In this document: one piece after another, positions 31,238 to 55,477 of the stretch
Numbering within the stretch: position 1 is the first letter of the stretch
Layout of the letters: each line of letters starts with the position of its first letter
Assembly: GCF_001021385.1 (NCBI RefSeq)
Contig: NZ_CP011773.1
Location: 930,001 to 994,000, forward strand
Direction: 5' to 3'
Length of the DNA stretch: 64,000 bases
DNA from: Mycobacterium sp. EPa45
Lineage (GTDB): Bacteria > Actinomycetota > Actinomycetes > Mycobacteriales > Mycobacteriaceae
Translations under genes and position numbers: made by a program
Notes under the pieces: model-generated
Told to the model about the DNA's origin: nothing
What the model saw: only the letters and a program-made list of their open reading frames with translations
The model's database searches: none

Positions 31238-34200
31238 ATGGCCGGAGAACGTGCGGAGGGCGCCAAGCCATCCGGTGGGGGCGGTATCGCTGCTGAGCTC
31301 GAAGCCGCAGGATTTTTAGACGCGGTCGAGGTAGGCCGCGGCGGCGCGGGGGTGGTCTACCGCTGCTATCAGACGTCGCTGGCGCGGACCGTCGCCATCA
31401 AGGTCTTGATGTCCGACCTCGACCAAGACAATCGCGAGCGGTTCCTGCGCGAAGGCCTGGCGATGGGCAAGCTCTCCGGTCACCCGAATATCGAAGACAT
31501 TCTCCAGGTCGGCGTCACCGAGACCCATCGGCCCTACATCGTGATGCCGTATCACGAGGCTGGATCCCTGGCCCAGCGGTTGCAGCGGGTGGGCCGGATC
31601 GCCTGGCCCGACGCGCTGCGTATCGGGGTGAAACTGTGCGGGGCGCTGGAGACCGCACACCGCGTCGGCACGTTGCACCGCGACATCAAACCCGGGAACG
31701 TCCTCGTCAACGACTACGGCGAACCGCAATTGAGCGACTTCGGGATCGCGCGCATCGTCGGCGGGTACGAAACCGCGACCGGATTCTTCACCGGCACCAT
31801 CGCGTTCACCGCACCGGAAGTGCTGGCCGGCAATCCACCGACGGCGGTGTCGGACGTGTACTCCCTCGGTGCCACGATTTACGCGGTGATCGCCGGAGCC
31901 GCGGCCCACGAGCGTAAAGACGGCGAGGATCTGGTCGCGCACTACTTGCGGATCAGTTCGACGCCGGTGCCGGACATGCGGCCCCAGGGAATTCCCGCCA
32001 ATATCTGCGCCACGATCGAGAAGGCGATGTCGCTGGATCCGTCTCAGCGGCACGTGTCGGCGGCCGAGTTCGGCCGCGAACTGCAGGCGGCGCAGCGTAA
32101 CAACGGGTTGATCGCGGACACGATGGTGCTCAGCGAATCCACCGGCCACTCGAAACCTGCGACAGAGACCGCGGCGATTTCGCTGGCGACCGCCGAGCAG
32201 AGCGAACTGCCCGATCCGGCCTCCCTCGCCATGGCCGCACCGCCGGTGACACCGCCGCCCCCACCGGTGTCCAACCTCGGTGGCGCGGGCGGACCGATCT
32301 CGCCCAACCCGCCGGGACCGATCCCACCGGGCCCGCCGTTTCCCCCCGTCGGCCACGGTCCGCACACGCCCGGGCACGACGGGCCGACCAGCATCATCAA
32401 GAAGCCGACAACTCGGCGGTCCTGGCTGGTGGTCGCGGCGGCGCTCGTCGGCATCCTGGCGTTGGTGGCCGGCGGCATCTACTACGCGTCGAAGCCCGAC
32501 AACGGCGGGGGCGGTGGCAGCGCAACGGCGACGTCCAGCGCACCGACCACCGAGACTCAGGCCGGCTGGAAACCGATCACCAATGCGCGGGTGGCCCGCG
32601 AGGCCGCCGCGACGACACAGGCTGACGGCACCATCTGGATTTTCGGCGGCCTGGAAAGCGATGGCGGCGTCAGCGGACGGCACGAGGGTTACGACCCGGC
32701 CATCGACAGCTGGAAGGGCGGCGACGAGCTTCCCGTTCCGGTTCAGCATGCGATGGCGGTGACGTGGCAGGGCACCCCGTGCGTGATGGGCGGCTGGCGG
32801 GCCGAGGGCACCACCACCCAGATCGCGACGGACAAGGTGTGGCGGGTAGTCAACAGTCACTGGGTCGAACTGCCACCGCTGTTGCAGCCCCGTGCGGCGG
32901 GTGTCGCGGCGGTGGTCGGTGGCCGCATCGTCGTCACCGGCGGTGTCGACGCCAGCGGCAAGCTGGTGAACACAACGGAGGTGTTCGACGGCACCGCGTG
33001 GAAGCTGGCGGCCCAAATCCCAACGCCGAGAAAGATGTTGGGCGTGGCGTCGGACGACAGGGTGGTCTACACCGTCGGAGGAACCGACGGAACGAACGAC
33101 CTGCCGACGGTGGAGGCCTACGACCCGGCCGCCGACTCCTGGACGGCGTTGCCGGCTTTGACCCAGCCGCGCAGCGACCTCGGCGTCGCGATCGCCGACG
33201 CGCGGCTCGTCGCGGTCGGCGGACTCTCCGCGGGGCGGGTGCTCAAGTCCGTCTCGGTGATGGACCTCGCGTCAAAGACGTGGGCCGACCTGCCGGACCT
33301 GAGCACCGCTCGGCACGGGATGGCCGTCGCGGCGGTGGAGAAGTCGGTGTACGTGATCGGTGGGGCGACCGACGTCGGCACCAGCCAAGTGACATCGACC
33401 GCGGAGATGCTCAAGTTGGCGCCGCGCAAATTGCAGCCCGCGCCGGCCTGGCGGTCGCTGCCCGATGCGCCGACGGCCAGGCTGATGATGGCGTGGACGG
33501 TGCTCGACGACAAGATCTTCATCGCGGGCGGCATGAGCCACGGCGACACCCTTGCGCTCGTCCAGAGTTACGACCCGCAGACCAGGGCGTGGCAGGCGCA
33601 ACCGCCGCTGCCGACGCCCCTGCACCATGCGACCGCCACGACCTACCGCGGCGAAATGGTGGTGATCGGCGGGGCCACCGAGGAACTCGCGAACGCCTCG
33701 AACAAGGTCTACGCCTTGCGTGGCGGCACCTGGGTTGAGCTACCGAACCTGACCCATGCCCGCGCCGCCAGCGCCGCCGCAGTGGTCGGCGACAAACTGG
33801 TGGTCGTCGGCGGGCAGAACGCCAAGCAGCTCGTCGCGCAGACCGAGGTGTTCGACGGCCAGTCCTGGAAGGACGTCGCCGACCTGCCGACGCCGCGCGA
33901 GCACCTGGCCGCGGTGTCGGACGGGACGTACGTCTACACGATTGGTGGACGATTCCTCTCCGCCGACAAGAACTCCGCGGCGTTCGAGCGCTTCGACCCC
34001 AAGTCCGAGCAATGGACCAAGCTGGTCGACATGCCGACTCCGCGCGGAAGCTACGGCGCCACCCTCATCGACGGCCGGATCGTCGCGCTCGGCGGCGAGG
34101 AGCCGACCCAGGTGCTGACGACGGCCGAGATGTACGACATCGCCGACTCGAAATGGATTTCACTGCCGCCGATGCCGACGGCGCGGCACGGTGAGGCGGT

Positions 34201-34297
34201 CGCGTCGGTCGGCAACACCGTGTACGCGATCGGCGGCGCGAACCGGCCGACGCACGAGGGAGCGGTGGCCACGGTGGAGGCCCTCGACTTCACTTAG
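31238..34297 (+). CDS. PknK-like Ser/Thr kinase with transmembrane and kelch sensor
   Basis: 1019 aa from ATG 31238 (GGAGGAAC at 31221-31228); a GTG at 31154 is also in frame. The kinase domain closely resembles M. tuberculosis PknK: GRGGAGVVYR (~33), Lys55 in VAIKVL, HRDIKPGN (Asp149) and DFG (167-169). A Pro-rich juxtamembrane linker (~330-385) leads to one membrane helix (~396-417). The outer ~600 aa are about a dozen kelch repeats (for example IFGG, VVTGGVDASG, YTVGGTDG, VIGGATDVG), enough for two six-bladed propellers. PknK itself has no kelch region, so this is a chimera that could sense an external ligand. It converges on, and overlaps by 8 bp, the FHA-LuxR gene. Confidence 0.9.
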   Translation: MAGERAEGAKPSGGGGIAAELEAAGFLDAVEVGRGGAGVVYRCYQTSLARTVAIKVLMSDLDQDNRERFLREGLAMGKLSGHPNIEDILQVGVTETHRPYIVMPYHEAGSLAQRLQRVGRIAWPDALRIGVKLCGALETAHRVGTLHRDIKPGNVLVNDYGEPQLSDFGIARIVGGYETATGFFTGTIAFTAPEVLAGNPPTAVSDVYSLGATIYAVIAGAAAHERKDGEDLVAHYLRISSTPVPDMRPQGIPANICATIEKAMSLDPSQRHVSAAEFGRELQAAQRNNGLIADTMVLSESTGHSKPATETAAISLATAEQSELPDPASLAMAAPPVTPPPPPVSNLGGAGGPISPNPPGPIPPGPPFPPVGHGPHTPGHDGPTSIIKKPTTRRSWLVVAAALVGILALVAGGIYYASKPDNGGGGGSATATSSAPTTETQAGWKPITNARVAREAAATTQADGTIWIFGGLESDGGVSGRHEGYDPAIDSWKGGDELPVPVQHAMAVTWQGTPCVMGGWRAEGTTTQIATDKVWRVVNSHWVELPPLLQPRAAGVAAVVGGRIVVTGGVDASGKLVNTTEVFDGTAWKLAAQIPTPRKMLGVASDDRVVYTVGGTDGTNDLPTVEAYDPAADSWTALPALTQPRSDLGVAIADARLVAVGGLSAGRVLKSVSVMDLASKTWADLPDLSTARHGMAVAAVEKSVYVIGGATDVGTSQVTSTAEMLKLAPRKLQPAPAWRSLPDAPTARLMMAWTVLDDKIFIAGGMSHGDTLALVQSYDPQTRAWQAQPPLPTPLHHATATTYRGEMVVIGGATEELANASNKVYALRGGTWVELPNLTHARAASAAAVVGDKLVVVGGQNAKQLVAQTEVFDGQSWKDVADLPTPREHLAAVSDGTYVYTIGGRFLSADKNSAAFERFDPKSEQWTKLVDMPTPRGSYGATLIDGRIVALGGEEPTQVLTTAEMYDIADSKWISLPPMPTARHGEAVASVGNTVYAIGGANRPTHEGAVATVEALDFT

Positions 34298-54088: not shown

Positions 54089-54118
54089 GATTCGATCTCC
54101 TTTTCTTCCGAACTTCCG

Positions 54119-55477
54119 TTAACCAGTGATTCCGTGCTGGTAGAGGACCGGCACCTTGCCCCGCTGGGTGCGGGCGAACTGATCGATGGCCGCGTGCTGC
54201 ACCTCGAAGGCCGCGCAGCGCGGGTTGACGATGATTTCGTTGATCTCGTGGGCGTGGTGCAGGGCGGCGCGCACCGTGTCGGTAGTCACCTCGGGGATGG
54301 CCGGTGACAGCAGCATGCGAACCCGGTAGCGGTGGGCCTCCCAGAGGACCTGGAATTGGCAGTCACTCGGCTGATGCACGCCCAGGCTGGCCAACGCTGC
54401 CAGCAGGTGATCGCTGGAGAACGTGATCGTGTCCACGGTCATCGAATTCGGCATGCGGCCAAGGAGTTTGACCGTGCGGGCGGTGCTACCGCAGGCACAA
54501 CTGCCGCTGAGCAGCTGGCCGCGGTCGCCGAGCCGATAGCGCATGAGCGCCATCCCCGAGGTGGTCAGGGGGGTGACGACGAGCTCGCCGGGAGTACCGG
54601 GAGCCACCGGCCGGCCGGTCTCGTCGACGACCTCGAGAAGAACGGCGTCCTCGTGGATGTGGTGCACGGAGCCGCTCTGGTGTCGGCACTGGTATCCGAT
54701 GGGACCGGTTTCCGACGTCGAGTAGGCCAGCGATCGCACGGTGATATCCGGCGCGGCCGAGCGCACTACGCGCTCCCGTTCGGCTCCCAACGACTCGCCG
54801 ATGAACAGGAAGTTGCGCAACGGCAGGTCTGGCGTTCCGGCCACCAGTTCGGCGCCGTAAGCCGGCGACGCCACCAAGGTGTCGATGCCGTGGGCGGCGA
54901 TGACGGCCGCGGCGTCGGCGGTCGCGGTCAGCTCACCCATCGCGAAGGAGAGCGCCGGAAGCGAGCGGGTGATGTCTTGGACGAACAGGAACGCGCCGTT
55001 CAAGTCACCGGGCCAGAGGCAGTTCGCCACCCGGCTCGGTGGTGTCTGCAGGGCGGCGCGCACACCACGCACGCCCAGATGCCCAACCCGGTCGGTGAAG
55101 TCCCACGAGTGGTAGAGAACCTTCGGCCGGCTGGCGGTCCCGCTCGACCGCAGCACCAGCCCGGGGCTCTGGTCGAACAGCAGAGCCGCCGAGTGCGGCG
55201 GGCAGCCCGCAGCCACATCCGCGGCCGACAGAAGCGGCAGCGAAGAGAAGTCGTCGACGGTGTCGACGGCCGCAAGCGCGGGGAAGCTACGCCACACGTT
55301 GATGGATTGGCGTGCGGCCCCCAGCGTGGCACGCAGGTTGTGTTGCTGAATGTCGTCGATCTCGGTGCGGGACAACGAATCGAGGTCCTCAGCGAGGCGG
55401 ATCCCTGCCACGTTGCGCAACCGGGGCCTCAGTGCGTCACGACGCTCGGGTGCCGTCTCGTGCAGGTGCGTGGTCAT
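54119..55477 (-). CDS. PaaK-like adenylate-forming enzyme
   Basis: 452 aa, similar in size and order of motifs to phenylacetate-CoA ligases: [17 protein letters not shown] (P-loop-like), [54 protein letters not shown] and a C-terminal lid segment. A zinc-like CxC (SGSCACGS) is also typical. It may activate 4-aminophenylpyruvate-derived or other aryl acids as AMP esters, or act in N-N bond formation. It is the first gene of operon C. Its ATG lies 33 bp from a shared promoter element and is probably at or next to the mRNA 5' end. Confidence 0.8.

Follow-up and report, generated by a model that had tools for sequence, protein, structure and literature searches.

A predicted mycobacterial operon for an aryl N-N compound, pairing 4-aminophenylalanine genes with a nitrite-forming enzyme pair

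The 64,000-nucleotide stretch of Mycobacterium sp. EPa45 analysed here (contig NZ_CP011773.1, positions 930,001 to 994,000; hereafter the window) carries on its minus strand, at 34912-55477, a gene cluster that is likely to be a natural-product operon using a 4-aminophenyl building block to make an aryl N-N compound. Read from 55477 down to 34912, it encodes a PaaK-like ligase, PapB, PapA, four inserted genes, PapC, an alpha-oxoamine synthase, a diazotase-like enzyme of the acyl-CoA synthetase/adenylation domain/luciferase (ANL) superfamily, a major facilitator superfamily (MFS) protein with a C-terminal FHA domain, an ATP-grasp ligase, a type I 3-deoxy-D-arabino-heptulosonate 7-phosphate (DAHP) synthase, CreE, CreD and a class IV aminotransferase. 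Beyond the aminotransferase lie a protein with FHA and helix-turn-helix (HTH) domains and then, on the plus strand, a Kelch Ser/Thr kinase (Table 1). An earlier sequence-only reading had named the 4-aminophenylalanine (PAPA) route (PapA, PapB, PapC, an aminotransferase and a DAHP synthase), a nitrous acid-forming enzyme pair, two adenylate-forming enzymes, an ATP-grasp ligase, an oxoamine synthase-like enzyme and an MFS exporter, and all of these are present as judged by family or PDB matches. Taken together, a 4-aminoaryl substrate combined with a dedicated nitrite supply appears well supported by the comparisons that follow.

The strongest evidence for a predicted amine substrate derived from aminodeoxychorismate is the contrast between the gene neighbourhoods of the diazotase and those of control enzymes. 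Diazotase searches covered 397 genomes of the order (E 1e-60) and 394 of the class (E 1e-130), plus three mycobacteria with a second cluster form, type 2, and gave 16 further loci of the diazotase clade outside the close mycobacterial set. Nine of these encode a fused PapA (62-69% identity), PapB and PapC no more than about 10 kb from the diazotase. In another five, PabB-like (37-39%) and PabA-like (44-47%) genes are separate and lie at up to about 10 kb in three loci and at 14-15 kb in G644 and G293, which brings aminodeoxychorismate synthase genes to 12 of the 16 loci at about 10 kb and to 14 over longer stretches. The two counted as being without PapA or PabB are G584, where the contig ends in the region and the match spans 117 residues at 26%, and G896, with two matches of 31-32%. 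Among 22 loci of AvaA6-like control enzymes (34-37% identity; 22 of 71 lower-identity rows, mostly the best-scoring), none has PapA, PapB, PapC, PabA or PabB near the diazotase, in a comparison where the stretches extend about 10 kb each side for controls and up to 16-17 kb for the clade, and where the genomes are related and not independent, with many controls coming from one genus (g15); a CreE match lies nearby in four of the 22. Given these differences in stretch length and the relatedness of the genomes, no p-value is used in the argument. On this evidence, the substrate is very probably a 4-aminoaryl compound. The window PapA has both the GATase domain and the PIKGT motif with its Lys. 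A class I aminotransferase near PapB in G718 and G568 (recognised by Pfam in G718 only) is a plausible stand-in for the branched-chain aminotransferase (BCAT)-type enzyme of the window.

The diazotase matches the AvaA6 model NF058622 with E 4e-101 (339 bits). Its structure was predicted from a 39-row alignment with a mean predicted local distance difference test (pLDDT) score of 84 and low-confidence loops at 194-197 and 396-405, and in a fold search with this model PDB ranks 1-12 were all diazotase chains (CmaA6 and Tri17), placed above acyl-CoA ligases. Glu338, in a TTE motif, and Lys528 do not vary across the 39 aligned rows, one of which is the window enzyme. The available part of PMC11705231 describes E352 as the conserved Mg/ATP Glu of CreM, and we infer that Glu338 is its equivalent, CreM itself being outside the alignment. 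In a tree, the 27 window-type and type 2 diazotases separate from all 22 controls with 100/100 support; the type 2 enzymes nest within this clade and are weakly placed. A solved close relative, PDB 9xb8 (699.6 bits), is labelled "FadD" and was not among the matches listed in the fold search (structure library to 2026-04-08). The sequence-only reading had left a CreM-like diazotase open as one possibility for an adenylate-forming enzyme; fold, tree and neighbourhood strengthen this idea, and the protein is most probably a nitrite-using diazotase.

The nitrite itself would come from the neighbouring FAD enzyme and lyase. The former matches PDB 8cp2, a solved aspartate N-hydroxylase, with E 7.9e-199 and 56% identity, and all 10 checked residues (R13, W51, N62, R266, R276, R409, R412, N413, R416 and R577), taken from the list in the accessible part of PMC10404684, are retained. 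The lyase matches the PDB CreD 5xny with E 7.6e-128 and scores 549.7 bits against the nitrosuccinate lyase model NF052556, the next family reaching 373.7. It keeps all 15 checked residues, including the SSxMPxKRNP loop, R341, H253/D125 and E49/H118; these come from the catalytic residues given in the available part of PMC13411527, with positions mapped by a constant offset from the loop, where the alignment to the PDB CreD is gapless. The two genes overlap by 4 bases. These results bear out their earlier assignment as an overlapping CreE/CreD pair, one that in all likelihood yields nitrite from aspartate.

The gene set recurs in other mycobacteria. A search via the diazotase gave 16 loci, of which 11 named mycobacterial ones (L043-L053) were compared; five non-mycobacterial loci (L054-L058, 24-36%), having a diazotase-like match only, were excluded. 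Contig coordinates show that 10 of these loci belong to genomes also found in the CreE search described below (for example, L043 is G117), and the two sets are not separate evidence. PapA, PapB and PapC occur together in all 11, and the order ligase-PapB-PapA-PapC-oxoamine synthase-diazotase-MFS-ATP-grasp-DAHP-CreE-CreD-aminotransferase is kept in 10; the eleventh, L052, has the same order up to its contig end. A conserved order in 10 of 11 loci, with PapA in none of the 22 control loci, is more than chance. The ancestral unit is one operon, split in the window by a 4.2-kb insert bounded, by comparison with G004, at about 47490-51679. Its Rieske, CHRD and hydrolase genes (47693-51583) lie between PapA and PapC only in the window and in L043, and are not at that site in the other 10 named loci, G004 or G697. 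The "three operons" of the sequence-only reading are therefore a local effect of the insert, relatives keeping a single uninterrupted unit. Outside the insert, adjacent genes overlap or stand at most about 40 bases apart, except for 173 bases between the ATP-grasp and DAHP genes. The inserted genes are not thought to be part of the pathway. Overlapping BLAST ends had hinted at a 15-base duplication at the insert ends, which the junction sequences did not bear out. As separate observations, Rieske and CHRD genes also occur upstream of the cluster in L046, where a 300-residue open reading frame (14802-15704) lies between the ATP-grasp and DAHP genes, and gaps of like size are seen there in L044, L047 and L049.

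Within the genus, CreE matches (E 1e-30) occur in 36 of 396 genomes: 18 with at least 80% identity along almost the whole protein (window included; three of type 2), one partial at 81%, nine at 51-52% and eight at 34-36%. Counting the partial one, the window-type cluster is found in 16 of the 396, and type 2 in three more. Thirteen of the 16 (the named loci, G004, G111 and the window) were read at length; G298, G065 and G005 were seen only as ATP-grasp-DAHP-CreE in short flanks. Judging by the species names of carriers, among them vinylchloridicum, rhodesiae, sphagni and aquaticum, the hosts may be mostly environmental. In the window's own genome, PapA has eight matches including itself, four of the others covering the chorismate-binding part and three the glutaminase part, with 31% and 49% for the best of these seven; PapA is an extra copy in this host. 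A second BCAT aminotransferase (50%) is also present. A genome search with PapC yielded, besides PapC itself, just two weak partial matches, and the type I DAHP synthase was the sole match of its type.

Related loci differ in content. Type 2 clusters (L059-L063, in G365, G369 and G293, together with G584, G644 and G456) all encode the diazotase, the aminotransferase, a mycothiol nitroreductase-like protein, two ATP-grasp ligases and a DUF362 protein; five of the six have DAHP synthase, CreE and CreD (not in the stretch read of G456), and five of six separate PabA and PabB. G365 also has LarC and LarB- and LarE-like genes (Pfam hints) of the nickel-pincer cofactor, and LarC is found in G369, G644 and G456. 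A second mycobacterial CreE/CreD pair (about 50%; 9 of 396 genomes) stands with a different AMP ligase in L064-L068 (G213, G074, G243, G266 and G192), and L065, read with Pfam, also has an aromatic FAD monooxygenase and a class II DAHP synthase. The CreE-like enzyme at 34-36% is seen in L071 (G017) and in seven similar matches; L071 has ATP-grasp- and AMP-ligase-like genes alongside (BLAST) and is possibly another N-oxidation cluster.

Beyond the genus, a wider reading is put forward tentatively, with rather more doubt than confidence: a wide, so far unknown actinobacterial family of PAPA-derived aryl-diazo pathways might have an interchangeable nitrite half, drawing nitrite from aspartate (CreE/CreD), from nitrate (a dedicated second NasC-like reductase) or from both, the mycobacterial version adding a CoA-ligase/oxoamine-synthase module and Kelch-kinase-controlled FHA-MFS export. 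Next after PapB-PapA-PapC-diazotase, G042 encodes a NasC-like molybdopterin enzyme, for which NasC is the best of 27 families, and an FAD/BFD protein matching only the N-terminal part of NirB (1-462 of 794). CreE is unmatched in this genome, and for CreD there is no more than a remote lyase (E 1.9e-12). G1025, G885 and G836, all of one genus, have CreE/CreD plus homologues of this NasC-like/FAD pair by the diazotase. Another NasC match elsewhere in G042 (76%) and G1025 (65%) makes the diazotase-side copy a second one. The NasC-like genes beside the diazotase also speak for its use of nitrite. CreE or NasC was found in the stretch read in seven of the nine PapABC loci. In G885, a nitronate monooxygenase gene lies beside CreE/CreD (L130, 3767-4843), perhaps protecting against nitro side products.

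In the proposed pathway, the DAHP synthase would raise shikimate flux, and PapA, PapB, PapC and the aminotransferase would provide 4-aminophenylpyruvate and PAPA. CreE would convert L-aspartate to nitrosuccinate, from which CreD would free nitrous acid, and the diazotase would adenylate nitrite and convert the aryl amine to a 4-diazonium. The PaaK-like ligase and oxoamine synthase may, as a pair, add a ketone unit. Both occur in the mycobacterial type, G706 and G499, and both are unmatched in the other seven PapABC loci, cleanly so in G718, G568, G1025, G885 and G836 (the last three being close genomes), with G042 and G1054 ending near PapB on contigs that cannot tell; this is a hint that the two may act together. 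The oxoamine synthase carries the Lys, Asp-x-His and His motifs of a pyridoxal phosphate (PLP) enzyme. G1054 has another short AMP-binding protein. The ATP-grasp enzyme, with orthologues (54-61%) in six of nine PapABC loci and none seen in the stretches read of G706, G499 and G042, could form an amide, and the exported form might, speculatively, be a small PAPA-derived amide or dipeptide with a diazonium, triazene or follow-on N-N group. Retention of the N-N bond in the product is favoured, with reservations, and a dipeptide-like product is rather unlikely.

Two features escaped the sequence-only reading: the kinase and FHA genes (31154-34910) and the FHA domain that the MFS protein carries. 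The kinase has its catalytic domain at 58-300 with HRD and DFG motifs, one transmembrane segment predicted by hydropathy at 424-442 and Kelch repeats after it, an arrangement resembling that of PknD, and it adjoins the cluster in 5 of the 11 named loci and in G004, G111 and G697. On that side, five other contigs end before it, and L051 (G183) carries a different kinase (30%) and an MFS homologue that matches 399 of 590 residues, without the FHA end. Kinase homologues occur in 55 of 148 mycobacteria (E 1e-80): a form at 85% or more in seven, all of them cluster carriers, and a 65-75% form in 48, because of which a cluster-specific Kelch kinase was ruled out. The combination of Kelch kinase, FHA protein and FHA-bearing exporter suggests Ser/Thr-kinase control, and the MFS protein would export the product, perhaps gated by the kinase through the FHA domains; such control of export is a speculative proposal that is somewhat doubtful at present.

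Several points weigh against this interpretation. CreD misses the NCBIfam equivalog cut-off for nitrosuccinate lyase (650 bits), which is read as probable distance from the members of the model, and the diazotase, far below the AvaA6 equivalog cut-off of 975, is not AvaA6 itself; its identity to characterised diazotases is about 30%, and its tree carries long-branch warnings. Type 2 clusters keep the diazotase and the aminotransferase with no PapB or PapC match, so the aminotransferase may have another substrate. In the stretches read, G568 has CreE and no CreD match, and G706 and G499 have neither CreE nor NasC; G706 has CreE elsewhere in its genome and G499 none at all. The NasC-like protein of G042 is below its NCBIfam cut-off (668.3 vs 1100 bits), and two of the seven loci lacking ligase and oxoamine synthase matches are cut by contig ends; both points weaken the wider family reading. 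The ligase-oxoamine synthase pairing remains a hint because it rests on few lineages, and no ring hydroxylase that would stabilise a diazonium was seen. The interpretation as a whole rests on sequence and predicted structure.

Of the other explanations, a transient diazo group is the one to be taken most seriously, even if it is unlikely: the aryl amine would be diazotised and the group then swapped for hydride, hydroxyl or another substituent, leaving a product without an N-N bond. The best fold match, CmaA6, works in such a pathway, the available part of PMC10777205 describing the diazo group as a passing step in avenalumic and p-coumaric acid biosynthesis. However, the operon has no additional NAD(P) reductase beyond PapC and CreE, and PAPA would be made just to be deaminated to ordinary phenylalanine or tyrosine skeletons. 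The position of the oxoamine synthase next to the diazotase, the presence of the ligase in the same operon and the occurrence of both near the diazotase in G499 and G706 are consistent with a different target, in which the oxoamine synthase would supply an alpha-aminoketone for the diazotase to turn into an alpha-diazoketone, PAPA forming its acyl or amino portion. This is quite improbable, as seven of nine PapABC-linked loci have no oxoamine synthase match (G042 and G1054 ending close to PapB).

Slightly less probable again is that nitrite serves C- or N-nitrosation, nitration or the formation of an N-nitroso or diazeniumdiolate group instead of aryl diazotisation; the PaaK-like ligase is weakly similar to BagE/FevW of the bagremycin and ferroverdin pathways (57.7 bits, cut-off 800), but the diazotase-type ANL enzyme, with its fold and clade support, argues otherwise. 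A role in additional primary metabolism, for folate, tryptophan, tyrosine or branched-chain amino acids, is very improbable and was rejected because of the other PapA-type and aminotransferase genes of the host and the patchy distribution within the genus, even though every Pap enzyme has primary-metabolism homologues and genome searches gave no clear second copy of PapC or of the type I DAHP synthase. To the extent that sequence allows a judgement, the outcomes that would have refuted the sequence-only reading are not seen: the FAD enzyme and lyase match CreE/CreD, and PapA and the aminotransferase have other copies in the host. For PapC and the DAHP synthase, housekeeping copies were not shown, which neither helps nor refutes the primary-metabolism explanation. 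Membership in an AvaA6/3,4-AHBA (3-amino-4-hydroxybenzoate)-type cluster was ruled out by gene content: a scan of 19 proteins from the operon and its surroundings showed no type II polyketide synthase (ketosynthase-chain length factor, acyl carrier protein) or 3,4-AHBA synthesis genes. An operon for a 4-aminophenyl-derived N-N compound is preferred.

Table 1. Genes of the cluster and its flank, in window coordinates.
Feature	Position	Strand	Basis or comment
Receptor-type Ser/Thr kinase	31154..34297	+	Pfam Pkinase and Kelch; probable regulator
FHA and LuxR-type HTH-like protein	34290..34910	-	Pfam FHA 62 bits; GerE weak (22.6, cut-off 23.5); probable phospho-dependent regulator
Class IV (BCAT-type) aminotransferase	34912..35991	-	NF009897 400.6 bits (cut-off 307); proposed 4-aminophenylpyruvate to PAPA
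CreD-like nitrosuccinate lyase	35993..37375	-	PDB CreD 5xny; 15/15 residues
CreE-like L-aspartate N-monooxygenase	37372..39339	-	PDB 8cp2; 10/10 residues
Type I DAHP synthase	39329..40363	-	Family models; proposed precursor supply
ATP-grasp ligase, L-amino-acid-ligase type, 430 residues	about 40537..41829	-	Start ATG at 41829; family models
MFS exporter with C-terminal FHA	41829..43601	-	Pfam MFS_1; FHA at 467-549 (26.4 bits, cut-off 20.7)
Predicted ATP-dependent diazotase (ANL superfamily)	43598..45292	-	AvaA6 model NF058622, fold search, tree
PLP alpha-oxoamine synthase, PRK07505 family	45329..46555	-	NF005697 371.9 bits (cut-off 342)
PapC-like aminodeoxyprephenate dehydrogenase	46552..47529	-	PDH_N and PDH_C; likely start ATG 47475
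Insert: Rieske, CHRD/SodC-like, TAP-like hydrolase, alpha/beta hydrolase	47490..51679		Comparison with relatives lacking it
PapA, fused PabA-PabB aminodeoxychorismate synthase with PIKGT	51651..53747	-	TIGR00553 371.8 bits (cut-off 328.4)
PapB, chorismate-mutase-family enzyme	53747..54088	-	TIGR01803 87.5 bits (cut-off 73.35)
PaaK-like aryl/acyl-CoA ligase	54119..55477	-	AMP-binding 28.4 bits, just below cut-off 29.9; other models

Two listed open reading frames are over-reads: the 571-residue frame of the ATP-grasp gene, and the long PapA frame from 53960, for which the ATG at 53747 gives 698 residues. Prephenate dehydrogenase models match the PapC-like protein, every one below its cut-off. 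At the cluster end, a SigF-like sigma factor gene (55716-56489) is divergent from the ligase.

If the proposal is correct, enzymatic N-N bond formation would reach a new amine class (4-aminophenyl amino acids), the mycobacteria, and a dedicated supply of nitrogen from nitrate. Aryl diazonium species are reactive and their chemistry is rarely met in cells; the enzymes, self-protection and possible kinase-gated export are directly testable, and a PAPA-diazonium would serve as a handle for biocatalysis. In line with the sequence-only reading, which knew of no described mycobacterial cluster of this composition, no description of a PAPA-plus-nitrite or mycobacterial diazo cluster was found in the open-licence literature among the matches listed, which in some cases were the best 15-20 of 218, 55 and 452.

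Several known systems share parts of this gene set. The papABC genes make PAPA for pristinamycin, chloramphenicol and dnacin, and the window shares with them PapA with PIKGT, PapB and PapC; to our knowledge, none of these uses joins PAPA to nitrite. The aspartate-nitrosuccinate (ANS) pathway of cremeomycin has the same two enzymes with overlapping genes and all of the checked residues, but there CreE and CreD stand with 3,4-AHBA genes and here with PAPA genes, and some relatives of the window add a nitrate-reductase-like gene to CreE/CreD or substitute it for them. Among the diazotases CreM, AvaA6, CmaA6, SpiA7 and Tri17, with which the window enzyme shares the predicted ANL fold, CmaA6 and Tri17 are its best PDB matches, whereas its identity of about 30% and its separate clade linked to aminodeoxychorismate synthase set it apart. 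The ava and cma clusters for avenalumic and p-coumaric acid likewise have CreE, CreD, a diazotase and an MFS protein, unlike the window in also having ketosynthase, carrier protein and 3,4-AHBA genes, which the 19 proteins scanned here do not include. For export, the nearest parallel is Rv1747-PknF, which the available parts of PMC3908365 and PMC5549992 describe as an FHA-bearing ABC exporter with its kinase; in both systems an FHA-bearing transporter lies beside a Ser/Thr kinase, but the transporter is of the MFS type here and of the ABC type there, and the window kinase has a Kelch part after its transmembrane segment.

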